From: Owenia fusiformis
Lineage: Eukaryota > Annelida > Polychaeta > Sabellida > Oweniidae
Length of the DNA stretch: 64,000 bases
Direction of reading: 5' to 3'
Assembly: GCA_903813345.2 (NCBI GenBank)
Contig: CAIIXF020000011.1
Span: 36,118,166-36,182,165, forward strand
Numbering within the stretch: position 1 is the stretch's first letter; each line of letters starts with the position of its first letter. Under the pieces are notes generated by a model that saw nothing but the letters and a program-made list of their open reading frames with translations, was not told the origin of the DNA and ran no database searches. Positions 1 through 59,226 of the stretch are shown here, in pieces. The translations under genes and the position numbers were made by a program.

Positions 1-117
1 GATAATTGGTGATTTATTGCCATTAGAAGAGGTCTCTTGCACCTTATCAGTTATTTCCACATCATCAATAGAAGGTTGTGCAGGCATTTCCAAATTTTTC
101 ACATTCTTACGTCTCTT
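1..117 (-). CDS. USP16/45: USP16/45 coding exon 15 (partial, cut by window edge)
   Basis: 39 open codons after acceptor [21 protein letters not shown] then an acidic, Ser-rich stretch, still in the variable insert. It runs off the window, so the real exon end is unknown. Confidence 0.78.
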
Positions 118-21100: not shown

Positions 21101-24100
21101 CAATAACAAAGAACTTCATGGGTGAAAAAGGTAACAACTTAAAATTATTCTCAGATTACAAGTTTTTGGGCAACATGCGCAGCAATCTTATGATGTTCAA
21201 AAGATCCGCGCTGCATAAGCATAACCGGAAAAAGATGGAAAATGTAAGTTGTTGAAGTGTTTTAAACTTACCGGTATTAACTATTTTATATTGGTTATGT
21301 CCGTCCCATCCCCTCCCGAATGTCCCATCCCGAAATGGATAATTCCCGTCCCATCCCGAAATATTTTTGTCCTGTGACATCCCTAAAGCTTATAGGGTTT
21401 TTGTTTCTTTTTTTGTATATATCTATCAATTTTCCACAAAGACATTATATATAGGAGTTGGGAATATCAATTTGTGCAATGGGGAATATCTAGTGGTGTG
21501 TCTCTCTTAAGAATTTTCTATGCTACAACAAAGGTAGTACGTTCCACATCATGAGGAGAATTTTTATGTAATTTTATTGATTCTAATTACCATATTCTCT
21601 CTAATGAGTGCACAGTTCCAATTAACGCACATACGACTTTTATTTTGTATTTGGCCTCAAGAAGTCACAAAGTTTCATGCATTAGTTCGTTTTGATTATT
21701 TACACAAACTCTTGATTGATGATTATATTTAAGGTAGAACGTCAATGTCTACAGACTTTTTTTCTACTATTCAGATTTTCTTGAAAAAATTCTAGGTGAA
21801 AGACATACTGATGTGTAAAAAAAATGTGAAAATTAGAAAAATTGACTGTTTAGTTATTTCTAAAAAAAAAGTTTTAATTTAACATTGCTCTCAATTTCTT
21901 TTTTTTTTTTAAATTGCGCAATTCAGATTTTCTTCAAACAAATTGTGATTATTCTATGAGAATACAAAAGTATTTAAAATAATATTCATGAAAATTCACC
22001 TTACAGATCTTGAGAAAAAAAAACGTTGAATATTATGAATCAGTGGGAGAGATCAAACGGTTTAAAATAAAAAATATAGATTCTGCCGGGTCTCCAACCC
22101 AATTTCTTGGAGTTTAAAAACAGTGAAAAACCTGGCGCTTTAATTGATTGCGTCATGTAGCATTTGAACAATCAGAAGAAATTTTTGAAATGAATAAATA
22201 TCTACATTTTATTCAGTCCTCGTTTTTTGGCATTAGAGATGCACGAACTGATTGCAAATAGACATTGAAGTTCTACCTTAATGTATAGAAAAAAATACAG
22301 GAGCTTTGGAGTAGAAACCTTAGTGATGACAACTATTTCTAATTTTTTTGTGTGTGTGCTTATTGGAATCTCTCAATATTCTACCCCTTTAAACTTCAGT
22401 ATGGTAACCCAACTCTGCACTCATTAGAGAGAATACAGTTCTAAGAATTAATGAAATAATAATTTTTCACATTTTATGTGGATATTTACAATTTTATTTT
22501 CAAATACTGTACTCCCAGTATTTTTCATGTGCTATTTATTTTCGCATAATTTGCGATGGTAGTAAAATTTATTTATTTACATAAAACATATTATAATCAT
22601 TTGTTCCAGATCACAACTGGATGCTGTCCATTTTCACAACCAATTCGAGGGTCCAGCCATTCTACTAAGATGTATGGAGCAGAGATAGACTTGGAGTCGA
22701 ATAGTTTATGTCTGATAGACAGTGCCATTACCAGTCTACAAGATGTTCCCCTTAGACCACACCTGACCAATCTCAACCTCCATTCTAACCACATAGAAAG
22801 AATAGAGAAACTCTCTCATTTAACATTATTAAAACATTTAGATTTGTCTTCAAATCAAATCTCAAGAATAGAAGGACTCAATGGACTAGTGTCGTTAAAA
22901 AGTCTAAACCTTGCGTGTAATCACATCTCAAGAGTTGAGGGATTGGAGCGTCTAAACAATCTTGAAAGACTTAATTTATCATACAACAATCTAACAGACA
23001 TAACATGTCTTCAATTAATGTATGAACCCCAATATAAACTTTCACATATTGATCTCCATGGCAACAACATCCAGTCAATTGACATGGTAACACAGAGTTT
23101 AGCAGGATGTACATCACTACGCCACCTTTACCTACAGTATGAATCTGCTGATAATCCAGTATGTTATGTTCCCAATTACCATAAACATGTCATGACTGTC
23201 TTGCCTCAGCTGATCTCGCTTGATGGCTTAGATCAACATGAGCGACCAATGGCTGTCACCGTCGACAATGTATTAGCAGATATCCCAGGAATTGAAGATT
23301 TTATGGATGTGTTAAAACCACCATCCAGTACAGATGCAAAGGATGTCATAAAACTAGCAACTCCTAATATCGACACAGTTCTTGAGAAGTTTCGTTCTCG
23401 TGGTGCATCAACTCCAGAGTTAACAAGCAATACATCTTTTGGAAATACCACATCCTCTGTTACTTCTGATGGTAGAGGTCTATCAGGTGCTACAACATCA
23501 AGTTCAAACGATCTCATTCATACACCACCAGAAAAACTAAAGAAAACTGATCATGAAGAAAGACTGGAAAAACTAGAGCAGCAACTTGCTGAATATCTGA
23601 CATCTAATGATAAGAAAGGTATTGAGTCAGCAGAAGAAAAAACCAAAAAGTCTAATACAATTGAGAAAAGACCAGTAAGGAGTAGATATGTAGCAAAAAG
23701 AGATTGTGATGTCACAGATGAAAGTGATGTTGATAGTGCACAGAGTCAAAGAACTTTGAAAAACAAAAAGACAACTGGCATTCCCAGTCTACAAAAAGGT
23801 GGTAGAGGTAGTCAAAGAACAGCCAAACCAACTCAATCTATGAGCGAACCTCAATATAATACAAGACAACCAAATAAATACACAAATGGACCCCAACAAA
23901 ATAAAAGACAACCAATTAGCACAAAAGTAAACACAATGGATTCACCATCAGCAATAGCTCAAGATGACCAACAGCGCAGAGATATTGAAGACACATATGT
24001 ACAGCTCATGAAGGAAGTTGAAAGTGAAAGAGAAAGAAGGTGGAAGGCAGAACAAGCTGCAAGGAAACTTGTAGAGCATATACAGAAGCTACAAACATCA

Positions 24101-27100
24101 GCAAAGGAAGAACATGACGTACAGGATATTGCCATTCAAGCCACTACAAGACTCAAACATGCACTCACCAATGAGAGAGAAGCAAAACTGAGACTTCAAG
24201 ATGACCTAGATGCAACTAAAAAGCAATTAGAAGATGTTTCAGAACAACTTAAAGCAAGCCAGAAACACGAGGAAGAACAAAGAAGGGCATTAAGAGCTTT
24301 AGAGACAACATCAGTGCAATTTGAGACAAAGAGAATACAAGAGTCATCGGAGCAAGCCAAGAAGGTTCAACAGGCACAGTTACAGAACAGTGCTACACAG
24401 AGGGAAGCTGAACTACTGCGAACATCAGTCAAATCACTTAAAGGACAATTACAGCAGATGCAAGAACTATTGGCTGATAGAGAACAGGAACACAGGAAGG
24501 AGCTGTCACAAAGATACAGTCTTGGAAGCCCAGAGCTACAGGGTCTTATAAGCAAAGAGGTCGCCAGAGTAGAATCCAGACACATACAAGAACTGCAAGC
24601 CAATCAGAACAAGATCGCCAACCTAACACAGCAGTATAATGAGCTGGAAGATGAGTTTAGGATGGGCCTACAAGTAGAGGCAAACAGATTCAATGAGCTA
24701 CAAACAGCATACAAAGCATCAAGTACAGAAGCAGCAGAGAACAGACAAGCTTTAGTTGCTGCACAGAAAAAGGATGAAAAGACAAGTAATATTGTAACAG
24801 AGCTGACTGCATTGGTAAAAGAGCAAAAAGCAAGGATAACTGAACTGGCTAAGACTAAACAGGAGCAGGTTGCTGATATGAAAGAACGCCTTAATCAGCA
24901 GGATGCCCATTTGGAAGAGGCTAGGAAGAGACTGTCGCAAATGGAATTTCTGAAACAGGAAAATAAAAAGTTGGTTTCAAAGAACCATGCTTTAGAGTCA
25001 GTCATAGAAGGTCTGAGATCAGAAAGAAAACTATGGAGTGAGGAATTAGCTCAACAGGGGTCATCACTTGCCCAGGATAGAGGGCGCTTGGAGTCAAAGA
25101 TAGAGGCTCTTACACAGGAAACGCAAACACTCAGGAAACAGTTAGATAGAGAAGTAGATGGGATGAAAATCAAATCAAAAATGATAGATGACCAGACTGA
25201 AACTATAAGAAAACTCAAAGAGGGACTTTCAGAGAGGGATAACGATGTTAAAAAGGCACGTGAAGAAAGCCTTAAGATTCAACAAGATCTCGAAGCACAA
25301 CTAGCTGAGGAGAGCACTGCGTACCAAGATGCCCAAAACACAATAGAAAAGCTACAGCAGAGGAAAGAAGACCTTAAGGAACAACTTATGGAGCTCCAGG
25401 CCCAGTTGGAAGATTCACAAAAGGCACATGGGATACTCAACAAGAAGTGGACTGACAAGTCTTCCTTGATTGGGAGACTAGAGGAACAGGTACGGTTCTC
25501 ATTAGTTCAACTACCTCATGTTATCCCAAGGTGTACCAGAGAATTCTATGATTTCCATGGTTACAGTTGTGAAATTACCAATTTTTAAAGCTGGGAATAT
25601 TCTGCTACACTACCACAGAACGTTTACTCTTTAGGCTGTAAAATTGCTTTATTTTACATTTTGCTTGGATACAAAATATCAGAAACGAGTCAAAACTTTC
25701 ATTTGAGTTTTCATTTTGGACATGAGATATTTCAACTGAGTGCTAGGTTATTATTAAGGTTTCACATAGATATAGTACCTGGTTTTGATTATCCGGTTTG
25801 AATTATGATTTTAATGTTATAACTGTTATTCCAGGTGCAAGGAATGAAGACTACATGGGAGAATAAGGAGAAGACTCTTACAGAGGAGAGAGACAAGGCT
25901 GTACAAGCAGCTGAGTAAGTAATCCACAAGACACACACTAGTGATAAATATCACTTTTTAATAGTAAATCCAAAATGACCACAAACTAATCTAAAGCATG
26001 GGGCTGATCTGTACATTTTGAAGGGCACTTGTATATGAGCATGGATACTTATGGCCCTCTAGGATTAAGTCTCCCCTTCGTAGAATTCATTGGCCCAATT
26101 GAGTATAAAGAAAATAGTTGTCATTAGGTCCCTGGAAAACATATTGAGAGGGAGACAGTAATGGGACATAAAATTACACATTCACATTTTTTTAATATAT
26201 AATATAGAACTATTCTTACTTATTTCTCACATATTGATAAAACAATTGCAGCTTGAAACTTGTGCAAGTCTATATATATCTGTCACAGAGCTTTATGATT
26301 TTACATTGATTATTCCATGAGATAAAGGTCATTAAAATATACAGTAAAACATGTTTATCTGGTTCTCTTATACCTGTATTAACCAGTACATTGATTTCAC
26401 TTTCAGATCTGCAGTTGAAAAGTTGAAATCATTGGACAATGCATTCCGTAAACAACTTGATGCCAAGGAATCTAGTCACCAGATCGAACTTGATAAACTG
26501 ACCAATCAGAAGCAAGAAGAGCTTAATGAGGCATATCGCCGCATAATGGAGGTTGAGGATGAAATGCGAGCACTTCTAGCTGAGAATGAATCTAATAAGA
26601 AAGCAATGGACGACAGGATTAGGAAATTGACTCAAGGTTTTACTGAGCTCCAACAAGACCTCATTAGATGATACTGGGCTAGTAATAAATGTGATACTTA
26701 GGCAATAATAATAGATTGAAGTGAATATACAGTTTACAATACTATCAGGATTGTTCCTCTTTAGAACGATTTTTGCAAATGATCTCTCAAATACCAGCTA
26801 GAGTTGGCCAGGATTGTGTTTAATTATTAATTGTGTTTAAATGTTTGTATTTATGTTCTTAAAATAAATTTAGTTTTTTAAAAAATATATTTATATATTT
26901 TTTTGGTAATTACTGGATCGACAGTGGACACCCTTGATTCATGAAAAGCTGAAAAAGTTACATTAATATTAATATTTACTAGTACCTTCAACACATTCAT
27001 GTCTCAGGTCTTGGAATATTCATAATGAAGTGCATGTATGACATGTATTTGTGGATAAAGTATAATATTATATAGAGTTTATTCCATTAGTACTTAAATA

Positions 27101-30100
27101 GGTGGGATGTCAATTTCTGTCACCAACTTGACCATATTTGGGCAGAACTTGACCATATTTGGGCAGAACTTGACCATACTTGAGTGGAACTTGACCATAT
27201 TTGAGCAGAACTTGACCATATTTGGGCAGAACTTGACCATATTTGGGCAGAACTTGACCATACTTGAGTGGAACTTGACCATATTTGAGCAGAACTTGAC
27301 CATATTTGGGCAAAACCTGACCATATTTGGGCAGAACTTTAAAATATTTGAGCAGAACTTGACCATATTTGGGCAGAACTTGACCATATTTGAGCAGAAC
27401 TTGACCATATTTGGGAAGTCTTGACCTTATTCAAGTTATCAGGCCCATGATGCCTCATAGATGTTCATGGGTTTCATTTAACATCACTCAGATGTAAATT
27501 AGTGAGAAACTGTTGTAGAAAGAGACATTTTCCTCTGGTTTCTCTTACAAAAATTGTAGAAATATTACAACTTGGTTTTACAAATTCTTTTAAAAGAATA
27601 TTTCTGAAAAATGTGCCAGTTTTCATTCATTTTGTCTGTTGTCTAATGAAACCCCTCTAATGAAACCCCTGATTGCTATAATGTACATACTACATGTACT
27701 TCATGTACCGTGTTTGTAAGATGTGTGTGCTAATTAAATGAAAACTTACAAGTTTAGGTAGCATGACGTCATCATCATCGTCACATTTGATGGCCTCACG
27801 TCCTGGCAATGTCATTTTGACATCTTTGCTGCATTGCAATAACTGCTGCTCAAGAATATGGGTCTGGCTAAGATTCTAAAACACATCAATTAAATAACAA
27901 TGAAAAATAGTCATAAGATTGTTCATGTCTAAAATTAAGAAGATTAGACAATTTTTTACATTTTTTGTAACTTTAGTTTAAACTTTTATAATACAGATAA
28001 AACTGTAAAGCAAAACACCTAGTGGAACAGTCTTAAAGTCCAGTAACCCATCTAATGTGAAATAAATCTCTTTGGAACATTTCTCAAATAGAAATGACTC
28101 ATTCATTCAATGTGGCATGAAAGTTGAAAGTAAATAAGATTTCAATTTCAGCCAAACAAGATTTAAGATTAAGTACACATACAAAGTATTAGGATCCATC
28201 ATAGTTTGGTTTGGTTGATGACAAACACTAGGCATCTACATGTGTACTTCAAAACTGATAGATCTTTCTGACCCAAGTCATTACTAAATAATTAGTCACT
28301 TCAGAATAACAAGATATATGTCATCCACTGCATTCTAACATGTTCATCTGAGAGCCAAAACTGACTGGCCCTACTCAATAACTTATGTGACAGTCAGCAA
28401 TAACTCTGAAGGAATACCTGTTAGAGACCTACCTGCATAACTGCATTGAAGAAACATGTGTTTCCAAGATTGCTTAGGCCCTGAAATATAGAAAATATTT
28501 TATAACATGATATTACCAGATTTTCTCGCATATACGCCCCCCTAAATTTAGGCCCATGGGCCAAAAATCGAATATAGTACGCTTATACGCCCATGGGCCT
28601 ATAAAAAATGACTATTTATTGATTTTTTCAATAAATTCAAGAGTATTTTGTCACTGGCAGATCGTTCTGTCGTACTTTGTTTCATTGTATTAACATTCAT
28701 TAACAACTTAACATTCCATTGTATTCATCAGCTCTTCTCACCTTTACGCCCACTGGGCCAAAAATCGAAAGTAGTACACTTCTACGCCCATGGGCGAAAA
28801 ATAAGAGGTAAAATAACAGACGAAATTGCCCCTTCTTTCAGTTATACGCCCAGGGCTTATATGCGAGAAAATCCGGTAGCCTGTCTCTTAATTCTAAAAT
28901 AAGTACATAAAATAATACGATTTTCTCACTCTTCTGCCCACTGGGCATTTATTTGGAAATACATTAGAATGAATTCTCATGGGCATTCATTAAGACAGAA
29001 ATATTGATTTATAAGGTTAGATTATCTTTTCCAATGGCAATTTTCATTGAAATTATTCGAAACAGGACTTCTTCATGATTACTGAAAATACTGCAAACAA
29101 TTTTTTAACACAGTCTGAAGCCAAACATTCGACACCCAAAACAAAACTAATGTAACAGGCAATCAAATAGTGTTATGTTTAATCATTGTATAAGTAAACA
29201 GAATGAGTAAACTGTGTGTTCACTTATGACACTCTAAAATGAGTGGAACACATATGATTAACATCAATACAGTAAAACTTGTATTGAACAACTCCTTACA
29301 CCAAACATCTCTCATTACACTTAATTAGTGACAATAGCATTTGAATCAAGACAGGTTTCACTGAATGTAGCATACACTTGCTTTGGAATCTTTTTCAATA
29401 TTTCACCCACTGAATCTTTATTTGAAAAATCAATGAAAAAGTAAAATGACCATGACGGGCTCACCTTGACTTTTGGCAGAATACTGTTGTTTGGCTGCTT
29501 AGTGGCAGATTTAGCAGCAACTGCTTCAACAGCTTCATTGGCACTGGGCTCACTTCCTTCAATCCCTGCCTTTTTGCCTGGATGTAAAACATTGCGAATT
29601 CAATGACAATGAAGTATCCATAAGATGAATTAAGGTTGATGTGTACATGAGCCTAGATGCTAGTGGCAATAATCTCAACCAAATATTCAAGAATTAGTGA
29701 ATATTACCTGGTATTTGTGTTGCCTGCTGGGTAGATGCTGAAGAGAGCGCTTTACGTAAAAAATCGACACATTCTAAGAGACGTTTGCTACTCCCAGAAT
29801 TCACCTCATCATCGCAGTCATAACACCTAGAATAATAGAGTCGTGAGATTTAATAATCATAACACCTAAAAAGATAATCATTGATCTCCCAAGGGTGCTA
29901 TATATAAATTCTAATTTTACCTTTATTTTGGAATGATTGGAATGGGGTAGCATGTAATTTTTAGATTTTCAAGCAGTTGCTATTTTAATGCTGATTGATA
30001 CATTGGTTAAATAGCCATTTCATGTTAACTGCACTAGTTATTGCAAATGTATACAAGAACACAAATGTGTACAAAATGTCCCCACCAATGGGTGATCCCA

Positions 30101-33100
30101 TCAAATGGTTATCCTGAAAATGAGTAGACAAGACTTTACCAACACAATTTGAGGACGGAAAATCCAAAATGGCCACCTTAAAATTTACCCAGAATGCCAA
30201 ATTTTAGTCAGTTATAGATTTTCAAACTAAGAACCACCCCTGAAAATTTTTAATTGACCGTCACACAGTTAACCAGAAAACATGTAAACAAGACTTTACA
30301 GACAAGATTTTAGGATGGAAAATCCAAAATGGCTGCCTTGAAATTTACCCAGAATGTCAAAAAACTTTTCATACTAAGAATCATCCCTGAAAATATGACA
30401 TTGATCTACCAAATAATTCACCTGAAAACCAGACGGTTCACCTAAAAACGCGTAGACAAGACTTTACAGGCAAGATTTTAAGACGGAAAATCTAAAATGG
30501 CTGCCTTGACATTTATCCAGAATGCCAATAAACTAATCAGATCTAGATTTTCATACTAAGAATCATCCCTGAAAATTTGAAATTGATCTACAGAACGGTT
30601 CACCTGGAAATGCGTAGACAAGACTTTACAGACAAGATTTTAGGACGGAAAATCCAAAATGGCTGCCTTGACATTTACCCAGAATGCAAAAAAACTGATC
30701 AGTTCTACATTTTTATACTAAGAATCATCCCTGAAAATTTGAAATTGATCTACCAAATGGTTCACCTGAAAACGCGTAGACAAGACTTTACAGACAAGAT
30801 TTTAGGACGGAAAATCCAAAACGGCTGCCTTGACATTTACCAAGAATGCCAAAAAACTAATCAGATCTAGATTTTTTTACTAAGAATCATCCCTGAAAAT
30901 TTAGAATTGATCCACCAAACGGTTCACCTGAAAACACGTAAACAAGACTTCACAGACAAGATTTAAGGACGGAAAAATCCAAAATGGCCGACAATAAAAA
31001 AGTGATTATGAGTTTTTGCTGATTTCTTTTTACAAAATTATCACATATAACTACTGTTAACAATAACATAGGCTTTTACAACAAAGTACATCTGAAACTA
31101 TTTATAAAGCTACTAAATAGTTAAAGTATGAAAACTCAAAAACACCATTCAATATGATACAAAGTATTATCGTGCGCTAACTTTTATTAAGACATTCAAA
31201 ATGGCTGACATGACTGAGCTAACAGGTCCAAAACCTAATCAGATCTAGAATGAAGTGAGCTGAACAAGATGTTAAAGTTTTAAAAGCAACTATGAAGCCG
31301 TTTTTCTTAAAGTTTGCAGACAAGGATTTTAGCATTTGACTTCAAAATGGCCGACAAGAAGTAGGTATCGAGTTAAATTTTTTTCATCCACATCTGTATG
31401 CACATATAAGTTATCCCTGAAAATTTGAAGGTGATATCTGTAGCGGTTTTGGAGAAAACTCCCGGACGTACGGACGGACAGACGGATAGACAAACGGACG
31501 CGCCTAGGCCGACAATATGGCCCCACACTATGTGGTGGGGACATAAAAAGAGTACAGCATGGATGGATGCATTTCTAACCAGAACAACGGCAACGCCAAA
31601 GCGTAGCGAATCCCATCGAACAGAAATCGCTGGCATTTTTACAAACGAAATATATAGCAAATATCATAAAACAACACACCAGAAAGGCCACCATTTTCAA
31701 AATGGTTGCTCACTAGCCAAGTTGTCATCAGAAGAAATAATATGCTTTTAAGTAGCCATCTATAAAATTTTTGAAAAATCGCACACATGTACTTGTAAAA
31801 TAACATAAAAATGGTGGCCATTTTTCAAAATGGCCGACTACTCCCCAAAGTTTTAATAGACAATGTGCCATGCTAAGAGTATTCACATATCAAATATGAA
31901 CAAAATCGCTCCACTACTTTTCGAGTTATAGTAAAAAATGTAAAAATGACAGCCATTTTTTAAAATGGCCACCTACTATCTGAAGTGTCATGATACAGTG
32001 TGCAAGGTTCATGAGTATTCACATATCAAACATGAACAAAATCGCTTCACTACTTTTCAAGTTACAGTAAAAAACCTAAAAATGATGACCATTTTTCAAA
32101 ATGGCTGCCTACTACCCAAAGTGTCATTAGACAGTGCGCCATGCTTATAGTATTCACATATAAAATATGAGACATACCAAATATGAACAAAATCGCTGAA
32201 CTACTTTTCGATTTAAATTAAAAAAAGTTAAAATGGCGGCCATTTTTCAAAATGGCCGCCTTCTACCAAAAGTGTCATAGGACAGTGTGGCATGCTTATA
32301 GTATTCACATACCAAATATGAACAAAATCGCTCCACTACTTTTTGAGTAATAGTAAAATACGTTAAAATGGCGGCCATTTTTCAAAATGGCCGCCTTCTA
32401 CCAAAAGTGTCTTTAGACAGTGTGCAATGTTTATAGTATTCACATACCAAATATGAACAAAATCGCTCCACTACTTTTTGAGTTACAGCAAAAATCGTAA
32501 AATAACGAGTAAAGGCCGCCATTTTTCAAGATGGCTGCCATGTGCTTTTTTAATATCTACATTTGAAGCTTTATTAATGTCCTTTATAATTTTTTTACAT
32601 TTTAAACATATTGCTATTACAGTTTTACATATTGCACCTAAATTACTGTAAAATCGTCACTAAAATGGCCGCCATTTTGAAATGAGCGGCCATTTTGAAA
32701 ATCTGCTTTCGAGCAGAACTTCTACCCCCATAGGGTATATGTGTACAAAATATGAACAAAATCGAGCCAACGGTATTTGAGTTATTGCCCGGACGGACGG
32801 ACGGACGGACGGACGGACGTACGTACGGACGGACAGACGTACGTACGGACGGACGGACATACGTACGGACGGACGGACGGAGGCGTTCCCTATATCCCTC
32901 CGAACTTCGTTCGATGGGATAATAATTTTGTTAATTCTCCATACATACCAATGAGCCAATATTTGTAGCAGGTAATCAGGGATAAGGGGGCTAAATTGAA
33001 CAAAATTACTCACAATATAAGTAAACTCTTGAGGTTCATGACCAAGGAATGTGAGGCTAAACTAAACAATATTACTCACAATATAAGCCAACTGTTGAGA

Positions 33101-36100
33101 TTGATGACCAAGGAATGTGGGGCTAAACTGAACAATATTACTCACCATATAAGCCAACTGTTGAGTTTGATGACCAAGGAATGTGAGGCTAAACTGAACA
33201 ATATTACTCACCATATAAGCCAACTGTTGAGCTTGATAACCAAGGATTGTGAGGCTAAACTGAACAATATTACTCACCATATAAGCCAACTTTTGAGGTT
33301 GATGACCAAGGAATCTGAGGCTAAACTGAACAATATTACTCACCATATAAGCCAACTGTTGAGTTTGATGACCAAGGAATGTGAGGCTAAACTGAACAAT
33401 ATTACTCACCATATAAGCCAACTTTTGAGGTTGATGACCAAGGAATGTGAGGCTAAACTGAACAATATTACTCACCATATAAGCCAACTTTTGAGGTTCA
33501 TGACCAAGGAATGTGAGGCTAAACTGAACAATATTACTCACCTTATAAGCCAACTGTTGAGGTCAATGACCAAGGAATGTGAGGTTAAACTGAACAATAT
33601 TACTCACAATATAAGCCAACTGTCGAGGTTCATGACCAAGGTATGTGAGGCTAAACTGAACAATATTACTCACAATATAAGCCAACTGTTGAGGTTGATG
33701 ACCAAGGTATGTGAGGCTGAAATGAACAATATTACTCACCTTATAAGCCAACTTTTGAGGTTGATGACCAAGGTATGTGAGGCTAAACTGAACAATATTA
33801 CTCACCATATAAGCCAACTTTTGAGGTTGATGACCAAGGTATGTGAGGCTAAACTGAACAATATTACTCACCATATAAGCCAACTGTTGAGATTGATGAC
33901 CAAGGAATGTGGGGCTAAACTGAACAATATTACTCACCATATAAGCCAACTGTTGAGTTTGATGACCAAGGAATGTGAGGCTAAACTGAACAATATTACT
34001 CACCATATAAGCCAACTGTTGAGCTTGATAACCAAGGATTGTGAGGCTAAACTGAACAATATTACTCACCATATAAGCCAACTGTTGAGGTCAATGACCA
34101 AGGAATGTCAGGCTGAAATGAACAATATTCCTCACCATATAAGCCAACTTTTGAGGTTGATGAACAAGGAATCTGAGGCTTAACTGAACAATGTTACTCA
34201 CCAAATAAGCCAACTTTTGAGGTTGATGACCAAGGTATGTGAGGCTAAACTGAACAATATTACTCACCATATAAGCCAACTGTTGAGGTTGATGACCAAG
34301 GAATGTGAGGCTAAACTGAACAATATTACTCACCATATAAGCCAACTGTTGAGCTTGATGACCAAGGAATGTGAGATTAAACTGAACAATATTACTCACC
34401 ATATAAGCCAACTTTTGAGGTAGATGACCAAGGAATGTGAGGCTAAACTGAACAATATTACTCACCATATAAGCCAACTTTTGAGGTAGATGACCAAGGA
34501 ATGTGAGGCTAAACTGAACAATATTACTCACCATATAAGCCAACTTTTGAGGTTGATGACCAAGGAATCTGAGGCTAAACTGAACAATATTCCTCACCAT
34601 ATAAGCCAACTGTTGAGGTTGATGACCAAGGAATGTGAGGCTAAACTGAACAATATTACTCACCATATAAGCCAACTGTTGAGGTTGATGACCAAGGAAT
34701 GTGAGGCTGAAATGAACAATATTACTCACCTTATAAGCCAACTGTTGAGGTTGATGACCAAGGAATGTGAGGCTAAACTGAACAATATTACTCACCATAT
34801 AAGCCAACTGTTGAGCTTGATGACCAAGGAATGTGAGATTAAACTGAACAATATTACTCACCATATAAGCCAACTTTTGAGGTAGATGACCAAGGAATGT
34901 GAGGCTAAACTGAACAATATTACTCACCATATAAGCCAACTTTTGAGGTTGATGACCAAGGAATCTGAGGCTAAACTGAACAATATTCCTCACCATATAA
35001 GCCAACTGTTGAGGTTGATGACCAAGGAATGTGAGGCTAAACTGAACAATATTACTCACCATATAAGCCAACTTTTGAGGTTGATGAACAAGGAATCTGA
35101 GGCTTAACTGAACAATATTACTCACCATATAAGCCAACTTTTGAGGTTGATGACCAAGGAATCTGAGGCTAAACTGAACAATATTGCTCACCATATAAGC
35201 CAACTGTTGAGGTTGATGACCAAGGAATGTGAGGTTAAACTGAACAATATTACTCATCATATAAGCCAACTTTTGAGGTTGATGACCAAGGAATCTGAGG
35301 CTAAACTGAACAATATTACTCACCATATAAGCCAACTTTTGAGGTTGATGACCAAGGAATCTGAGGCTAAACTGAACAATATTCCTCACCATATAAGCCA
35401 ACTGTTGAGGTTGATGACCAAGGAATGTGAGGCTAAACTGAACAATATTACTCACCATATAAGCCAACTTTTGAGGTTGATGAACAAGGAATCTGAGGCT
35501 TAACTGAACAATATTACTCACCATATAAGCCAACTTTTGAGGTTGATGACCAAGGAATCTGAGGCTAAACTGAACAATATTACTCACCATATAAGCCAAC
35601 TGTTGAGGTTGATGACCAAGGAATGTGAGGTTAAACTGAACAATATTACTCATCATATAAGCCAACTTTTGAGGTTGATGACCAAGGAATCTGAGGCTAA
35701 ACTGAACAATATTACTCACCATATAAGCCAACTGTTGAGGTCGATGACCAAGGAATGTGAGGTTAAACTGAACAATATTACTCACCATATAAGCCAACTT
35801 TTGAGGTTGATGACCAAGGAATGTGGGGCTAAACTGAACAATATTACTCACCATATAAGCCAACTTTTGAGGTTCATGACCAAGGAATGTGAGACTAAAC
35901 TGAACAATATTACTCACCATATAAGCCAACTGTTGAGATTGATGACCAAGGAATGTGAGGCTAAACTGAACAGTATTACTCACCATATAAGCCAACTTTT
36001 GAGGTTGATGAACAAGGAATCTGAGGCTTAACTGAACAATGTTACTCACCAAATAAGCCAACTTTTGAGGTTGATGACCAAGGTATGTGAGGCTAAACTG

Positions 36101-38422
36101 AACAATATTACTCACCATATAAGCCAACTGTTGAGATTGATGACCAAGGAATGTGAGACTAAACTGAACAATATTACTCACCATATAAGCCAACTGTCGA
36201 GGTTCATGACCAAGGAATGTGAGGCTAAACTGAACAATATTACTCACCATATAAGCCAACTTTTGAGGTTGATGACCAAGGAATGTGAGGCTAAACTGAA
36301 CAATATTACTCACCTTATAAGCCAACTGTAGAGGTTGATGACCAAGGAATGTGAGGCTAAACTGAACAATATTACTCACCATATAAGCCAACTTTTGAGG
36401 TAGATGACCAAGGAATGTGAGGCTAAACTGAACAATATTACTCACCATATAAGCCAACTTTTGAGGTTGATGACCAAGGTATGTGAGGCTAAACTGAACA
36501 ATATTACTCACCATATAAGCCAACTTTTGAGATTGATGACCAAGGTATGTGAGGCTAAACTGAACAATATTACTCACCATATAAGCCAACTTTTGAGGTT
36601 GATGACCAAGGTATGTGAGGCTAAACTGAACAATATTACTCACAATATAAGCCAACTGTTGAGGTTGATGACCAAGGAATGTGAGGCTAAACTGAACAAT
36701 ATTACTCACCATATACGCCAACTTTTGAGGTTGATGACCAAGGAATGTGAGGCTAAACTGAAAAATATTACTCACCATATAAGTAAACTTTTGAGGTTGA
36801 TGACCAAGGAATGTGAGGCTAAACTGAACAATATTACTCACCATATAAGCCAACTGTTGAGCTTGATGACCAAGGAATGTGAGGCTAAACTGAACAATAT
36901 TACTCACCATATAAGCCAACTGTTGAGGTTGATGACCAAGGAATGTGAGGTTGACCGAGGCTGCATATAATGTTGCACTGCATGACGTTCCTTAGAGTAA
37001 CGATCACATCCCTAAAATGTAAAAATATTGATATCATGATAAAATATTTTGATAGCCATCGATGAATGTTATTGGCTTAGCTAATATAAAGTATAATCAT
37101 CATGGAATGGCCCTCTCTTCTTGCATCATAGATTGCCATGGAATATGGTATAGGGATTTAGAATTGGTGAAATAGACTGACGAATCAAATTTGTAATAAC
37201 AAACGTGTGATTTGAAACGTCACTGCATAGACAAGTGTAATAAACAATTTCCGATTGCAAACGGTCAATTCCTTGCAAAGTACTAAGTGGGTCTAGAGAT
37301 AAAATTCATTCATGCCGGTTATAGATCACGTGAGAATGCTGCTATAGCTAGTCCTCTTTGGAATTTCCCAATGCAGTGTAGATACATTACCTGATTTCCA
37401 CATTGAAGGCAAACAATTATGCCAACATCCTCGTCTGAGGGGGACATGACTGGCTTGGCTCCACCTTTGCTGGCATTCTTTACACATGTCTGCAATTAAA
37501 TAAATAAATTTGGTTGATCAGCGTATGAACTTTTTTCTTTTTCAACATATTTCATGTCATTTTTTCACATTTAAACACAATTTAATGTACTTTATGATTT
37601 TTATTTCCATGCTCAAAGCAACCATTGATGGACTGAAAAGTATTAGATCAATTATATGCATATTTGAAACTGATAGCATCTGACCTTAAAAAGAACAAAG
37701 TGTGTGAAACATAACTGAACACTACAGTTATGAAAATAATTGAGTATCCCACACTACAGTTATGAAAATAACTAAGTATCCCAGAGATTCGTTAATCTTA
37801 CCACACATTCTCCAATTGCACCTTGTTGTTTCAATGACTTCTTCATTGCATTAAGGTTGACAGACTTATTGATGTGGGGGCATGTCTGACCTACAATACA
37901 ATAAAGAAAACAATTGACATAACATTATCAAATTAAAGCCAAATGTTATTTCCTTGTAAGGGCAGGGTTGACATCATTTTCCTTGGTAATATCTAGTCTA
38001 TTAAAAGCCAACCTTTGATAACAGTGAAATTATAACATATTGTATGAAGTGAGAACCAAGGTCTATAAATTATTCTTAAAGTGTGTTAGAAATGGTCTCA
38101 TTCTTTATTCTTTGTACAATAACTGTCTGGTTTTATAATATCAAATGATTCTTTTACGTAAGCGTTGAGATAGTCAGACAGGAGGACAAGTGGATGATTC
38201 CATAGGCTAAGCAAGCAAGTCACAAATATATCAGACAGAAACCTCACATACATGTAGTCAGACAGGAGGACAAGTGGGTGATTCCATAGGCTAAGCAACA
38301 AGTCATAAATATATCAGACAGAAACCTCACATACCTGTAGCTTGAAGGCCCTCATCCGAAGACTCACTATTCAAGTCAATGTCCTTCTTTCCATGACGCA
38401 ACTTGTGCTTTTTCTTGCCCAT
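1..38422 (-). CDS. USP16/45: USP16/USP45-type ubiquitin carboxyl-terminal hydrolase, 5' part (15 coding exons, truncated by window edge)
   Basis: Cysteine-protease deubiquitinase of the USP16/USP45 family. Human USP16 deubiquitinates histone H2A and USP45 acts in DNA repair; which role applies here is unknown. I joined the exons by hand: 38422-38335, 37890-37802, 37489-37391, 37011-36908, 29826-29708, 29577-29465, 28480-28433, 27875-27750, 12790-12657, 12082-11995, 11153-11066, 2714-2626, 2395-2339, 1618-1463 and 117-1. All have GT-AG borders and agreeing phases, giving 505 codons without a stop. Residues 33-131 carry the ZnF-UBP ligands (C33, H35, C58, C61, C86, C89, C94, H102, H106, C128, C131). 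Residues 205-220 are the Cys box [16 protein letters not shown], with C213 the predicted nucleophile. QQQDSHELL and FLDLSLP follow as in vertebrate homologues. The His box and C-terminus lie beyond position 1. The start MGKKKHK resembles MGKK of human USP16. Whether the best orthologue name is USP16 or USP45 is open, since invertebrates often have one copy. Confidence 0.93.
232..1360. repeat. 92-bp tandem array, about 12 copies
   Basis: Exact 92-bp period (unit starts at 232, 324, 416 ... 1336), each unit holding CACAAGGGCAGAG and CATGAATGCAAGTACTAG. Copies differ by few substitutions. The array fills most of USP intron 14. No ORF, and no resemblance to the flanking exons. Confidence 0.97.
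1463..1618 (-). CDS. USP16/45: USP16/45 coding exon 14 (basic insert)
   Basis: 52 codons of poorly conserved, basic sequence ending [14 protein letters not shown], in the position of the variable insert that interrupts the catalytic domain in USP16/45. Accepted on frame and splice sites (TTTAG / GTTTGT) rather than similarity. Confidence 0.8.
1764..1902. repeat. 139-bp foldback (hairpin) element
   Basis: ATCACACGTTTCAGC at the left end pairs with GCTGAAACGTGTGAT at the right, and the arms run about 38 bp with few mismatches. Probably a short MITE remnant in USP intron 13. Confidence 0.8.
2339..2395 (-). CDS. USP16/45: USP16/45 coding exon 13
   Basis: 57-bp exon encoding [19 protein letters not shown], the conserved FLDLSLP strand. 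Phase 0, acceptor TTTTAG, donor GTGAAT. Confidence 0.9.
2626..2714 (-). CDS. USP16/45: USP16/45 coding exon 12
   Basis: Encodes [19 protein letters not shown] and [10 protein letters not shown], the family FVDRIFGGELTSxxxCxxC segment with the CxxC pair. 89 bp, phase 1 in, phase 0 out, donor GTAAGG. Confidence 0.92.
2715..5409. other. USP intron 11, first part: no gene seen
   Basis: AT-rich non-coding DNA with poly-C/poly-G runs (near 3,500, 4,160 and 4,210) and a 32-bp direct duplication near 3,215-3,268 (ATATAATATTGTCCATAAAAG). The short ORFs here have no recognisable domains. Confidence 0.6.
5419..6765. mobile_element. 1.35-kb non-autonomous DNA transposon (TIRs about 90 bp)
   Basis: Terminal inverted repeats begin GGCTTTGTATAAAAAACCTC and contain CCCACGTACGTGGG. 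They are flanked by CTGTAATTA on both sides (5410-5418 and 6766-6774), a 9-bp (or 8-bp) target duplication. The interior has only short unrecognised ORFs, so it is non-autonomous. A diverged single end of the same family lies near 18,930-19,008. The TSD size would fit hAT or Mutator-like elements; the superfamily is not decided. Confidence 0.88.
6889..7069. mobile_element. MITE with GGCGTAGCC ends, copy 1
   Basis: Starts GGGCGTAGCCAG and ends CTGGCTACGCC, with G-rich and C-rich subterminal tracts. A second copy lies at 8815-9026. Short overlapping ORFs across it are by-products. Confidence 0.65.
7758..8430. repeat. 175-bp direct duplication (7758-7935 and 8259-8426)
   Basis: Both copies share TTAAAAGCAATTTTA, GGTGATGTTGGTACACTTCC and ACAAAGACTAAGACAAAG, with substitutions and indels, about 500 bp apart. 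No protein domain recognised; both copies have a stop soon after. Confidence 0.7.
8815..9026. mobile_element. MITE with GGCGTAGCC ends, copy 2
   Basis: Same ends (GGGGCGTAGCCAACTTTCAG ... CTGGCTACGCC) and G/C tracts as the copy at 6889-7069, but a different interior. Confidence 0.65.
9027..10583. other. USP intron 11, middle part: nothing recognised
   Basis: AT-rich sequence without a supported gene, repeat array or inverted repeat that I could identify. No RNA gene seen. Confidence 0.5.
10588..10880. mobile_element. piggyBac-like MITE with TTAA target site
   Basis: TTAA precedes (10584-10587) and follows (10881-10884) a 293-bp element. Its ends are CCCCTTGAATCCCAG and CTGGGTATTCAAGAGG. The TTAA duplication and CCC...GGG ends are typical of piggyBac-type elements. 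No transposase. Confidence 0.78.
11066..11153 (-). CDS. USP16/45: USP16/45 coding exon 11
   Basis: Encodes [14 protein letters not shown]... and KETKLKIK, corresponding to the RVSKGILKAF region of the human protein. 88 bp, phase 1 out, donor GTATAT. Confidence 0.87.
11538..11950. mobile_element. diverged Helentron-like repeat fragment
   Basis: Starts TCTAGAAAAACAGCAACTCC, like the 5' ends at 16,31x, 31,57x and 38,60x. It contains the shared GTGGCCATTTTGAA, ATAAAATTTGAAC and GACAGACAATTGGAC blocks. Old copy in USP intron 10. Confidence 0.5.
11995..12082 (-). CDS. USP16/45: USP16/45 coding exon 10 (QQQDSHELL box)
   Basis: Encodes [19 protein letters not shown] followed by [10 protein letters not shown], the USP QQD motif. 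88 bp, phase 2 in, phase 0 out. Acceptor TTCACAG, donor GTTTGT. Confidence 0.92.
12657..12790 (-). CDS. USP16/45: USP16/45 coding exon 9
   Basis: Encodes [12 protein letters not shown]...[11 protein letters not shown], matching the family segment that ends LFSQVCKK. 134 bp, phase 0 in, phase 2 out, donor GTAAGT. Confidence 0.9.
13237..13325. repeat. three tandem GGAGGATAT...GATATACTCC palindromic units
   Basis: Three copies of GAGGATATnGTGAnGATATACTC within 90 bp, each near-palindromic. Function unknown. Confidence 0.7.
13434..13566. repeat. 133-bp foldback element
   Basis: TCCTATGATTTT at the left pairs with AAAATCATAGGA at the right, and the imperfect pairing extends through GGTGATATTGATAT. 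Hairpin MITE remnant in USP intron 8. Confidence 0.78.
14100..14241. mobile_element. fragment of the AAGTGGAACACC MITE family
   Basis: Carries repeated GTGGAACACCTCC blocks and ends GACAGGTTTTACTGTA, like the complete element at 52,628-53,466. It lies just upstream of the cGAS-like gene. Confidence 0.6.
14402..15805 (+). CDS. cGAS-like receptor / Mab-21 domain nucleotidyltransferase
   Basis: 467 residues without an intron in the frame. Family members use a nucleotidyltransferase fold; catalytic ones (cGAS, cGLRs) make cyclic dinucleotides that signal through STING after sensing nucleic acid, while Mab-21 proteins are often inactive. Seen: GSS at 82-84 followed by DELDYMP, with E95 and D97 in the position of the metal-binding E/D pair, and VDLCFSIE with D224 as a likely third metal ligand. 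The activation triad therefore looks intact. The C-terminal half (about 275-465) is helical in character, as in Mab-21 domains, and ends in a PPPPP stretch. No cGAS zinc-thumb cluster was recognised. A good acceptor (CTGTCTTTACAG at 14,439) lies inside the predicted N-terminus, so an upstream exon may replace the first 12-13 residues. It lies in USP intron 8 on the opposite strand. Ligand and product are unknown. Confidence 0.8.
   Translation: MMTSNSIVPVFTGPFPAEIKEDIRRLKNFVNFIAFNADVKNRYSPQKLQEHISYIEAKVQTLCTKVGEYDSWMSTSKILRQGSSYKGTKILKPDELDYMPILAIFTRETVVVEDVKENCELKDKGCVYIKVNNSTIKDNLDELCHHTPSGSYLKGGTIYLAKLREAVKWALGEIDSLTYTGEHKHKDEDQDEPYPLGNISVCEKIHGPSITLKMGAPLCTAKVDLCFSIEGRDTNLGQCAMVSANAFVESSCQCGLSSSRHWDESPINPPNKYELSESHRELFLTFKLISHILNDTCQHLGIDTTFSVVHASSSYNIQSLVWQHQQTCQATNVGECYRNIVQMLNCGELDKPDELYVKVHDSPQGYLEDMFFPEVEREISPISIVGFMWFLQQVCHTESTEWWKTLFIEDDTRYNDNDHLSGLCEASNHLNELTACFSYPPPPPITLIQKWNNERNNQIASLTISRR
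16093..16245. repeat. 153-bp foldback element
   Basis: CAAATATTTCATTCTATG pairs with CATAGAATGAAATATTTG, and GGGCAATACCTGT and TTTCAATGATTTTTG also pair with the other arm. Strong hairpin. Confidence 0.82.
16319..16815 (+). mobile_element. Helentron-like (HINE) element, short copy
   Basis: 5' part has CAACGCCAAAACG and ATCCCATCGAACAGC. The middle has two copies of a unit with AATGGCnGCCATTTTTCAA. The 3' part has a short GGACAGACAGATGGACGGAC tract, then CCTCCGAACATCGTTCGATG, a hairpin, and GGGATAATAA. ATCCCATCGAAC near the start is the inverse of GTTCGATGGGAT near the end. Longer relative at 31,578-32,925. Confidence 0.6.
17390..17830. repeat. degenerate tandem repeat rich in GGGCACAAnCCAAT
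   Basis: A-and-C-rich low-complexity block in which GGGCACAACCCATT-like and CAnTTGTCAAA-like words recur every 40-100 bp. The ORFs on both strands here are artefacts of composition. Confidence 0.65.
17831..19220. other. USP intron 8 between repeats: no gene seen
   Basis: AT-rich non-coding DNA. Only the single transposon end at about 18,930-19,008 (GGAGGTTTTTTATACAAAGC, same family as 5419-6765) was recognised. Confidence 0.5.
19231..20354. mobile_element. 1.12-kb Mutator-like MITE with 10-bp target duplication
   Basis: About 66-bp inverted ends, GGGTTTGTGTAAAAAACCG on the left and its complement on the right, flanked on both sides by ATCACAACAC (19221-19230 and 20355-20364). The interior is built of AACGTT-rich sequence, including a 181-bp tandem duplication (19,890-20,250). 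The 69- and 71-residue ORFs there are shadows of this duplication. A 10-bp duplication fits Mutator-like elements. Confidence 0.88.
20365..21590. other. USP intron 8: nothing firm; C-rich repeat fragments
   Basis: Contains CCTCCGTCCCA blocks (20,600-20,635; 20,980-21,001) and CCGTCCCATCCCGAA repeats (21,300-21,370), probably old transposon ends. No gene supported. Confidence 0.5.
21595..22433. mobile_element. TA-flanked MITE (Tc1/mariner-like), 839 bp
   Basis: Inverted ends TTCTCTCTAATGAGTGCA and TGCACTCATTAGAGAGAA, with TA on both sides (21593-21594, 22434-22435). AT-rich interior without ORF. It ends about 180 bp before the LRRCC1 acceptor, so it may have affected that gene's 5' region. 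Confidence 0.82.
22670..26671 (+). CDS. LRRCC1: LRRCC1 (leucine-rich repeat and coiled-coil centrosomal protein), 3 coding exons
   Basis: Centrosomal/centriolar protein; human LRRCC1 (CLERC) helps keep spindle poles intact. Exons 22670-25489, 25835-25914 and 26407-26671 join in frame to 1,054 residues (human about 1,030). Residues about 32-140 form four to five leucine-rich repeats ([14 protein letters not shown] matches the human protein closely), followed by a cap ending near [11 protein letters not shown]. Residues 200-430 are polar and disordered. About 440-1050 is a long coiled coil, including [21 protein letters not shown] and [11 protein letters not shown] as in vertebrates. The start ATG at 22670 follows an acceptor at 22609 (TTGTTCCAG). 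The frame is open back to that acceptor, so extra N-terminal codons or a 5' UTR exon remain possible. Reading past 25489 gives an intronic tail to 25588 that I exclude. Nested antisense in USP intron 8. Confidence 0.93.
25835..25914 (+). CDS. LRRCC1: LRRCC1 coding exon 2
   Basis: 80-bp exon between acceptor TTATTCCAG and donor GTAAGT. It encodes [20 protein letters not shown] and KAVQAA, continuing the coiled coil as VKEVKEKFENKEKKL does in the human protein. Phase 0 in, phase 2 out. Confidence 0.9.
26407..26671 (+). CDS. LRRCC1: LRRCC1 coding exon 3 (C-terminus)
   Basis: Begins after TTTCAG; the split codon gives Glu, then [20 protein letters not shown], and it ends TELQQDLIR-stop, like the human C-terminus (NEIQQDM). 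Reading upstream of 26407 in the same frame is intronic. Confidence 0.9.
26863..26868 (+). terminator. LRRCC1: LRRCC1 poly(A) signal AATAAA
   Basis: Canonical AATAAA about 190 bp after the LRRCC1 stop codon, followed by a T-rich stretch. Likely polyadenylation signal. Confidence 0.6.
27120..27430. repeat. 21-bp tandem array, about 14 copies
   Basis: Period 21 bp, core TTGACCATATTTGGGCAGAAC with variants (ACTTGAGTGG, TTTGAGCAGA) arranged in a higher-order pattern. Since 21 is divisible by three, ORFs stay open on both strands (about 105 residues each); I do not regard them as genes. Confidence 0.95.
27750..27875 (-). CDS. USP16/45: USP16/45 coding exon 8
   Basis: Begins [12 protein letters not shown], continuing the Cys-box helix as in human USP16 (NLSQT), then an acidic [10 protein letters not shown] loop. 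42 codons, phase 0, donor GTAAGT. The next intron (12,791-27,749) holds two plus-strand genes. Confidence 0.9.
28433..28480 (-). CDS. USP16/45: USP16/45 coding exon 7 (catalytic Cys box)
   Basis: A 48-bp exon encoding exactly [16 protein letters not shown], identical to the USP16/45 Cys box. The catalytic cysteine is residue 213. Acceptor TTTCAG, donor GTAGGT, phase 0 on both sides. Confidence 0.95.
28516..28876. mobile_element. TA-flanked MITE, 361 bp
   Basis: Ends CCAGATTTTCTCGCATATAC and TATATGCGAGAAAATCCGG, flanked by TA (28514-28515, 28877-28878). Internal CGCCCATGGGC palindromes. Sits in USP intron 6, about 35 bp from exon 7. Confidence 0.82.
29465..29577 (-). CDS. USP16/45: USP16/45 coding exon 6 (linker)
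   Basis: Ala/Glu/Lys-rich linker between the zinc finger and the catalytic domain (residues about 167-204, ending NNSILPKVK). Acceptor ATCCAG and donor GTGAGC. Low conservation is expected here; it is accepted because it keeps the frame to the catalytic Cys box. Confidence 0.85.
29708..29826 (-). CDS. USP16/45: USP16/45 coding exon 5
   Basis: Its first base completes Trp127. It then encodes CYDCDDEV (last two zinc ligands C128 and C131) and a helix-like stretch, [16 protein letters not shown]. 119 bp, phase 2 in and phase 1 out, donor GTAATA. It is separated from exon 4 by a 7.1-kb intron full of repeats. Confidence 0.9.
30065..31545 (+). mobile_element. Helentron-like (HINE) element, family 2, with six internal repeats
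   Basis: TGTCCCCACCA near 30,078 and TGGTGGGGACA near 31,530 are inverted subterminal repeats. Between them are six units of about 161-168 bp (GTAGACAAGACTTTACA at 30,123 to 30,939), each containing AATCCAAAATGGC. The 3' part has a GGACGGACAGACGG tract and the hairpin CCCCACACTATGTGGTGGGG. This layout is described for non-autonomous Helentrons; the assignment is inferred. Confidence 0.65.
31578..32925 (+). mobile_element. Helentron-like (HINE) element, long copy
   Basis: Same family as 16,319-16,815. It has CAACGCCAAAGCG, ATCCCATCGAACAG, about six internal units of roughly 130-150 bp (AATGGCGGCCATTTTTCAAA), a (GGAC/GTAC)n tract at 32,791-32,880, then a CCGAACTTCGTTCGATGGGA hairpin. Lies immediately beside the 66-bp donor array in USP intron 4. 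Confidence 0.65.
32988..36949 (-). repeat. 60-copy, 66-bp tandem array of the exon 4 / 5' splice-site junction of the USP gene
   Basis: On the minus strand each unit is 42 bp equal or close to the end of USP exon 4 (CTCACATTCC ... GGCTTATATG), then GTGAGT and 18 more intron bases. Donor positions run at exact multiples of 66 bp from 36,902 to 33,008 (59 steps), so there is no net insertion or deletion in 4 kb. Copies differ by scattered substitutions. Only the copy at 36,908-36,949 continues into the upstream coding part of exon 4. The 942-, 395-, 172-, 164- and 163-residue ORFs across it are consequences of a stop-free unit divisible by three. Confidence 0.97.
36908..37011 (-). CDS. USP16/45: USP16/45 coding exon 4 (ZnF-UBP; parent of the 66-bp array)
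   Basis: Encodes residues 93-127: [15 protein letters not shown] with C94, H102 and H106, then [14 protein letters not shown], matching the family pattern before CYxCD. It ends in phase 2 inside the Trp codon (TG) at donor GTGAGT (36907-36902). The last 42 exon bases plus the first 24 intron bases form the unit repeated down to 32,988. The match to ZnF-UBP and the joining to CYDCDDEV in exon 5 make this copy the real exon end. Confidence 0.9.
37391..37489 (-). CDS. USP16/45: USP16/45 coding exon 3 (ZnF-UBP)
   Basis: Encodes residues 60-92, from TCVKN to CLQCGNQ, supplying C61 and the C86-x-x-C89 pair. It is 99 bp, phase 0 on both sides, with acceptor ATTGCAG and donor GTAATG. Confidence 0.88.
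37802..37890 (-). CDS. USP16/45: USP16/45 coding exon 2 (first ZnF-UBP ligands)
   Basis: Encodes residues 30-59, including C33-x-H35 and C58, the opening of the ZnF-UBP finger (CPHI, compare CRHI in human USP16). Acceptor TTGTAG and donor GTAAGA; phase 1 in, phase 0 out. Confidence 0.88.
38173..38340 (-). repeat. tandem duplication of the USP exon 1 / 5' splice-site junction (2 copies)
   Basis: GTATGTGAGGTTTCTGTCTG follows exon 1 at 38,334 and recurs at 38,251, 83 bp into the intron. The preceding exon bases CTACA are also duplicated (CTACAG and CTACAT). The copies are nearly identical over about 84 bp. Confidence 0.93.
38335..38422 (-). CDS. USP16/45: USP16/45 coding exon 1 (start codon)
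   Basis: Starts with ATG at 38422-38420 and encodes 29 residues beginning [18 protein letters not shown], basic then acidic. It ends in phase 1 at a GTATGT donor (38334). The donor region, including the last exon bases CTACA, is tandemly duplicated 83 bp further into the intron. No upstream in-frame coding was identified. The promoter presumably lies just above 38422, where I see no clear TATA box. Confidence 0.85.
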
Positions 38423-38597
38423 ACTAACTGTTTGACTCGTCCCTGTCTCTAGTACACGCATTGAGATGGACTGCTACTGGAGGCCTATCACAACATAGAC
38501 GCGTTGTCTTGAAATTTCAATGTCTTATAAACACTGATGAATCTAAAAAGGACCCAAATTGTGCAATAATAAAATCTATAAAACAGGTCCAATAAAG

Positions 38598-58544: not shown

Positions 58545-58918
58545 AGACAGGGCTGTCAACTTGGGACCATCTAACATGAGTGACTTCCAAAAGTCGAACA
58601 CCTTCCTTCAAACTTTGGACAGCTTTGGCAGATTTTGGACACCTAAAATTTAGGTGTAAATATTTTCGAAACAAATGCGTGATATATACACATATTTTGT
58701 ACCAAATGCGTGACATAAGCAAAGACCGAACGGAATGCGTTCGCTTTTTTTCGCCATTAGGTATTTTACCGTATTGGCATTTCACAAAAAACGATTTTTA
58801 AAAATATCAACAAAATGCGTGATATTTGGTCACACATGCAAAATTGATGCGTGATTTCTATTTTCCCAGCAAATGCGTGACAATCACGCCTAATGCGTGA
58901 GGGTGGACAGGGCAGCAG
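58545..58918. repeat. interspersed repeat with AAATGCGTGACA words
   Basis: Begins GACAGGGCTGTCAACTT and contains repeated AATGCGTGA/GCGTGACA words, like the two tandem blocks inside the element at 38,701-40,077. Single copy here. Confidence 0.55.
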
Positions 58919-59141
58919 AGATATACAGCAAAGCATCTATCACCTCCATGTCAAAAAAATTCAAAAAATCTTTGGATAATCATTATCTTCATTTGAAATT
59001 GTTTTTCTCATTTTTTCCAGGTTTCCGAGTGATTTAAACTGAAGGACCAGATGTTACAAACCTGGGGCCAGACCCACAGAGGTCTCTTTAATGTAATGTT
59101 CAAAAGATTGTAAATGGCTGGAAGAAATACATAACCTTCCA

Positions 59142-59226
59142 ATGGAGTCTGAGTTTGTGCCAGCTTCAACTTGCAAAAACATCTGCATTAAAGAGGAGAT
59201 TTCTGAGCCAGATACTCTATATCCAG
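59142..59226 (+). CDS. zinc-finger gene coding exon 1
   Basis: 28 codons plus one base, from the ATG at 59142 to donor GTTAGT. An acceptor-like TTTTTCCAG at 59,011-59,019 suggests a non-coding exon start just upstream. The exon joins in frame to the acceptor ATATTTCAG at 60,961. Confidence 0.75.

Follow-up and report, generated by a model that had tools for sequence, protein, structure and literature searches.

The locus analyzed here raises the question of what a long tandem array that repeats the 5' splice site of a coding exon means for the gene in which it resides. The original prediction had proposed that the array was born from the donor border of a coding exon inside its own gene, and that it could either regulate how much functional enzyme is made or represent a harmless satellite. 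Positions refer to the window, i.e., the whole analyzed stretch of 64,000 nucleotides, unless stated otherwise.

Exons 1-14 and almost the whole of exon 15 of a USP16/45 gene were located on the minus strand of the window, and the 19-exon gene model was completed with 30 kb from below the window's low end. Translation of this model yielded, letter for letter, the existing 920-aa protein P0121 of this genome. Within the first 395 residues, both the zf-UBP (PF02148) and the UCH (PF00443) domain scored above the Pfam cut-off, and the Cys box GNTCFF as well as the His box SGGHYTAY are present. The top solved-structure matches of the protein are human USP16 chains, and Lingula anatina provided the best named relative of the full protein among 120 listed (41% over 100%), on which the placement of the host as probably a lophotrochozoan is based. 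The USP16/45 gene is intact. Separately, a long plus-strand open frame of coiled-coil appearance was noticed at about position 24900 inside intron 8 of the gene, perhaps representing a nested gene. The features of the gene surrounding the array are as follows:

1..38461, minus strand: part of the USP16/45 gene inside the window (translation starts in exon 1 at 38461; the low end of the window cuts through exon 15; gene end at C11:36113244)
36908..37011, minus strand: exon 4, 104 nt, the final 43 nt being the exonic part of copy 1 of the array (spliced model equal to P0121)
36902..36907, minus strand: true donor of intron 4, GTGAGT (junction as in P0121)
29827..36907, minus strand: intron 4, 7081 bases, of which the array makes up 3919
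29708..29826, minus strand: exon 5 with the acceptor joined to exon 4 (model and P0121)

The junction of exons 4 and 5 lies within the zinc finger and reads NSWLIW-CYDCD. In P0121, which may be a prediction, exon 4 is joined to exon 5, and residues derived from the array are absent from this protein.

Tandem Repeats Finder (TRF) reported the array at 32989-36950 with a period of 66, 60.0 copies, 94% matches and 0% indels, representing the top score among the window's 41 rows. When cut every 66 bases, the array was resolved into 60 full units without any indel, 39 of which are distinct, at a mean pairwise identity of 94.0%.

32989..36950, minus strand (sense): tandem array of 60 units of 66 bp at the exon 4/intron 4 border (TRF and cutting every 66 bases)
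36950-36885, minus strand: copy 1
about 33056-32989, minus strand: copy 60
32989..36884, minus strand: the 59 later units, whose donor sites comprise 57 GT and 2 AT; 45 of the 59 reach or exceed the score of the true donor

Each 66-bp unit joins the terminal 43 nt of exon 4 to the initial 23 nt of intron 4, within which the donor GTGAGT lies. The composition given in the original prediction, namely 42 bp of exon, GTGAGT and 18 further bases, is equivalent, the phase being ambiguous by a shared CC. This CC is all that the flanks before copy 1 and after copy 60 have in common with the unit junction, and the first duplication would therefore have needed little or no homology. As had been predicted, exon 4 (37011-36908) continues upstream from copy 1 only, so that the authentic exon end forms one end of the array, and exon 5 begins at 29826, 3162 bases past the last copy (predicted: about 3.2 kb). 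The predicted arrangement of one true donor followed by 59 decoys was correct in placing the true donor at copy 1; the number of GT decoys, however, is 57, since AT replaces GT in copies 20 and 26, leaving GT in 58 of the 60 copies. The unit make-up, together with copy 1 being the border of an intact gene, bears out the proposed origin from a coding exon's donor border. Moreover, the exonic part of the array codes for conserved zf-UBP sequence common to human USP16 chains and other USP16/45 proteins, which indicates that the exon came first. A satellite of the same unit elsewhere in the genome had been named as an observation speaking against this origin; a 201-base array query searched against the 498-Mb genome (525 contigs, best-scoring candidates only) matched this locus alone.

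Relative to the consensus, copy 1 has one deviating site and copy 60, the most divergent copy, has seven, a pattern examined with regard to the homogenised centre and divergent edge of mirage repeats. Furthermore, units 22-25 are identical to units 28-31, and this four-unit block, shifted by six units, is a trace of block turnover in the array.

Splice sites were scored with a metazoan frequency table, which is not species-specific. On this table, the true donor ATG/GTGAGT ranks second among the 12 donors of exons 1-12. In total, 46 of the 60 donors in the array match or surpass the score of the true donor, and 42 of the 60 contain its 9-mer, the true donor being counted in both cases; decoys sharing the exonic context of the true donor had been predicted and were thus found. 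The array holds 11.6 donors per kb that equal or exceed the score of the true one, versus three such sites in 30,693 bases of other intron sequence between exons 1 and 12, so that chance is no issue for the array. The unit end represents an acceptor-like sequence, ttgttcagtttag, with a median score of 3.97 compared to 5.4-12.1 for the 11 real acceptors scored; five of the 60 array acceptor copies (5.76 and 6.92) are within the range of the real ones. AG and GT are both kept in 51 of the 59 later units, which gives the outline of 43-nt pseudo-exons. With regard to a splicing decoy exon, in which both splice sites should be recognisable, the array donors are strong and the acceptors mostly below the range of the gene. 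Moreover, the acceptor of exon 5 is accompanied by a short duplicate:

29827..29868, minus strand: TAGGTGTTATGA, a second occurrence of 12 bases from the exon 5 acceptor, placed 39 bases upstream of the genuine site and scoring 7.47 (genuine site: 8.84)

For donors 2, 3, 10 and 60, the predicted transcripts were computed, and the in-frame TGA located directly behind donor 1 ended the reading frame 127 codons from the second methionine, corresponding to 140 in P0121 numbering. Since this TGA sits directly behind donor 1, any later donor carries a premature stop by construction. Insertion of one or two 43-nt pieces likewise introduced stops in the three cases computed, and with three inserts the frame was preserved in all three combinations. 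As later donors and one or two inserts bring stops, no obvious productive isoform arises from the array.

Variable sites are distributed evenly, with 19 of 43 in the exon part and 10 of 23 in the intron part (38 distinct mutations among the copies; Fisher p = 1). An excess of synonymous changes among the array mutations was absent in each of the six frames. In the donor core GTGAG, one distinct mutation was counted versus 3.2 expected, which is not significant (p = 0.10) at the low power given by 38 distinct mutations. Counted by occurrences, non-majority bases amount to 1.30 per site in the intron part and 2.63 in the exon part. The smaller number of intron variants by occurrence and the count for the donor core are weak hints of constraint; overall, selection on the array was not detectable at low power. 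Copies 2-4, located beside the true exon, keep intact donors, and therefore nothing has purged them. The complete lack of indels was dropped as a sign of constraint, as other arrays of the window also show 0% indels.

Long open frames were observed within the array because 66 is a multiple of three. A sense frame offset by one is open over 966 aa (34091-36991, minus strand), with three stops elsewhere in the array, and an antisense frame over 404 aa (32969-34183, plus strand), with nine. Pfam searches with the consensus repeats returned nothing over the cut-off, the antisense repeat reaching 22.4 for EzrA at a cut-off of 39.6. A coding role of the array was rejected based on the frames being broken elsewhere in the array, the missing synonymous excess and the lack of Pfam matches above the cut-off.

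The exon 4 border is not the only duplicated border of the gene:

C11:36115405-36116471 (L009 7240-8306), below the window: second border array, intron 16/exon 17 acceptor, 11 copies spaced 92-97 bases apart, of which the final one is the true exon
38160..38345, minus strand: tandem duplication of the exon 1 donor region, shifted by 83 bases and sharing about the last five exon bases, no more

The ten decoy acceptors of exon 17 score 6.13-7.31, the true acceptor 6.13, and when reading continues from any one of the ten as far as the donor of exon 17, the frame ends in a stop after 758-774 of the 920 residues. A local duplicate (at least 28 of 40 bases, within 600 bases) was found at four of 36 gene borders versus 16.7% of 1500 random intron positions when the 66-bp array was left out, and 24.5% when it was included. 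Thus, local duplications strike the USP16/45 exon borders no more often than intron positions generally. Within 200 kb sampled at 20 places, 15 arrays with a period of at least 15 and at least four copies were detected, of which two have at least ten copies and none at least 20; tandem arrays as such are thus frequent in this genome, and the 66-bp array is long for it. In a small survey, border arrays were absent from 13 AAA-domain exon pieces (of 22 matches) in eight loci, where a single duplicate, located no more than 40 bases from an exon match, turned out to be intronic on inspection, and hence such arrays do not occur at every gene.

Further repeats were recorded as side observations. Intron 12 contains, 51 bases in, a degenerate copy of the end of exon 12 that agrees at 17 of 20 exon bases (window 2540-2660); it may represent an ancient duplication of the border. 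Below the window, 10.8 copies of a 17-bp unit form an array (C11:36113845-36114028) whose start lies a few bases at most from the donor of exon 18. A 36-bp array of about 36 copies is located at window positions 59483-60771, and the stretch 58900-61200 is open over at least 446 aa in four of six frames.

The original prediction had stated that no described system of this kind was known to its author, which does not hold for the field. Minisatellite-like duplications of exon-intron boundaries were described for amphioxus globin genes, and the corresponding repeats of Adh3 were named mirages (PMC3087553). According to the same source, mirage units may carry AG/GT signals, RT-PCR suggests that regular splicing is undisturbed, repeat length is unstable and at Adh3 even somatically variable, and intron gain from mirages was proposed. 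TnC and PGBD5 were added as amphioxus mirage genes, again with regular splicing reported as undisturbed (PMC3902484). The array resembles the mirages of Adh3, BflGb6, BflGb9, TnC and PGBD5, as these are described there: it spans the exon-intron border, contains AG/GT signals (GT in 58 of 60 units, AG and GT in 51 of 59 later units) and has the authentic exon at one end. Amphioxus mirages are described on the donor or the acceptor side. Differences concern the copy number, which is 60 here compared to six and three in the BflGb6 haplotypes of amphioxus, a member of another phylum, and the unit length, which is 66 bp here compared to 10-72 bp in amphioxus Adh3 and 150-160 bp in the globin genes. 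Furthermore, RT-PCR results and length polymorphism were reported for amphioxus mirages, whereas the present array is known from one assembly.

Comparable repeats are also described in human genes. The CBS gene contains a 31-bp VNTR, c.1444_1467+7(16_21) (PMC2630376), placed at exon 13-intron 13 (PMC1395315). Like the array, it is a repeated donor border (by its name, 24 exon and seven intron bases) of constant unit length with substitutions; unlike the array, it has 16-21 copies and is described as polymorphic in people. Going by the title of Lievers 2001, the CBS VNTR is reportedly associated with reduced activity. In IFI6 (6-16), a minisatellite supplies multiple donors, and downstream units are used (PMC4526556). 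Several coding mRNAs are described for IFI6, whereas use of a later donor brings a stop in the case of the array. The unit of this donor minisatellite, for which Turri 1995 is the primary paper, is short, about 12 bp. In intron 4 of OGT, a splicing decoy exon offers non-productive sites beside the real ones (PMC12017769). As described, the OGT decoy is one exon of about 150 bp with weak sites, unrelated origin and shown function; the array, in contrast, comprises 59 donor copies, which are strong and combined with weak acceptors, and is known from its sequence. Tandem duplication across an exon-intron border led to intron gain in potato RdRp (PMC4974935), where a single duplication is reported to have made the new intron, whereas the gene model here is without a new intron. 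Moreover, human segmental duplicates are reported to contain tandem repeats at exon-intron boundaries, from which novel introns may arise (PMC2812944). Literal-word matching in the open-licence literature found neither a 60-copy border array nor any such array in a lophotrochozoan. In summary, the array is a strikingly long member of the known mirage kind; new are its copy number, its probably lophotrochozoan host and the second border array, at the exon 17 acceptor, in the same gene.

Considering these results together, the array is probably a tolerated mirage minisatellite, in which the exon 4/intron 4 border of USP16/45 was duplicated in tandem and grew within the intron. Expansion would have proceeded by ordinary minisatellite turnover. 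In the pre-mRNA, donor 1 would win over the later copies, because it is nearest to the upstream acceptor and closes the normal 104-nt exon, and the remaining copies would be removed together with intron 4. Occasional use of a later copy would produce a premature stop and mostly useless mRNA. With donor 1 winning and the rest being spliced away, the array would cost little, if anything, and would lack an evolved function; its effect is most likely small. The use of downstream repeat units as donors in IFI6 (PMC4526556), the reduced activity reported in association with the CBS VNTR and the hints of constraint noted above speak against this explanation.

An unlikely alternative is a splicing rheostat, in which donor 1 would face competition for U1 from the other copies. 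A fraction of the transcripts would then be retained or mis-spliced and destroyed, and array length would set the amount of USP16/45. The many donors with scores equal to or above that of the true one fit such a device, as does the in-frame TGA that every later donor leaves behind donor 1; in a VWF minigene, a cryptic donor can cause intron retention (PMC8706089), and OGT decoy exons act in this way (PMC12017769). The title-based report on reduced CBS activity points in the same direction. However, constraint on the donor is not significant, amphioxus mirages are reported to be harmless to regular splicing (PMC3087553, PMC3902484), and the second array of the gene is of the acceptor type, which speaks for general repeat turnover and not for a designed donor array. 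An extended form, rated as quite unlikely, is a brake tunable by copy number, in which the array donors, dozens of them matching the true one in strength and context, would titrate U1 and send some of the USP16/45 pre-mRNA into dead ends, the exon 17 acceptor array would act from the other side, and array length would set the USP16/45 level.

Very unlikely is a reservoir of pseudo-exons, in which the units, as 43-nt exons with a weak acceptor and a strong donor, would occasionally be spliced in, comparable to the intron-gain model for mirages (PMC3087553) and the border duplication of potato RdRp (PMC4974935). Retention of AG and GT in most later units and the frame kept by three pieces in all three combinations computed are in line with it, but the array acceptors score low, one or two inserted units bring stops in the cases computed, and P0121 is free of array-derived residues. 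Furthermore, gaps of only 23 nt separate the 43-nt pieces, which is below the minimal intron length. Donors can also protect long introns from premature polyadenylation (U1 telescripting), and the array could shield intron 4 accordingly: the intron is long, and eight AATAAA/ATTAAA sites occur in the 3162 bases after the array, none within it. Yet introns 8 (14,959 bases) and 11 (8,351 bases) are longer, and the 66-bp array occurs only in intron 4, making a shielding role highly improbable. It is just as hard to credit that copy number or order in the array is an assembly artefact. Tandem arrays are hard to assemble and one assembly is concerned; the 39 distinct units and the repeated four-unit block nevertheless look like real turnover, and the array lies within a contig of 37.3 Mb. 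Between the regulator and the harmless satellite of the original prediction, the evidence favours the latter, because significant donor constraint is lacking, a second border array exists in the gene, and borders are duplicated at a rate not above that of intron positions.

The array represents a natural experiment on splice-site choice: in a conserved gene, the true donor is followed by dozens of others with an identical 9-mer and near-identical exonic context, and the exon 17 array adds ten acceptors with scores equal to or above that of the true acceptor. Mirages, found described in amphioxus, are now observed in what is probably a lophotrochozoan. Hence, the duplication of borders, on which one model of intron gain draws, seems not to be confined to cephalochordates. 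If the brake were true, array length would set the level of a chromatin and ribosome deubiquitinase.
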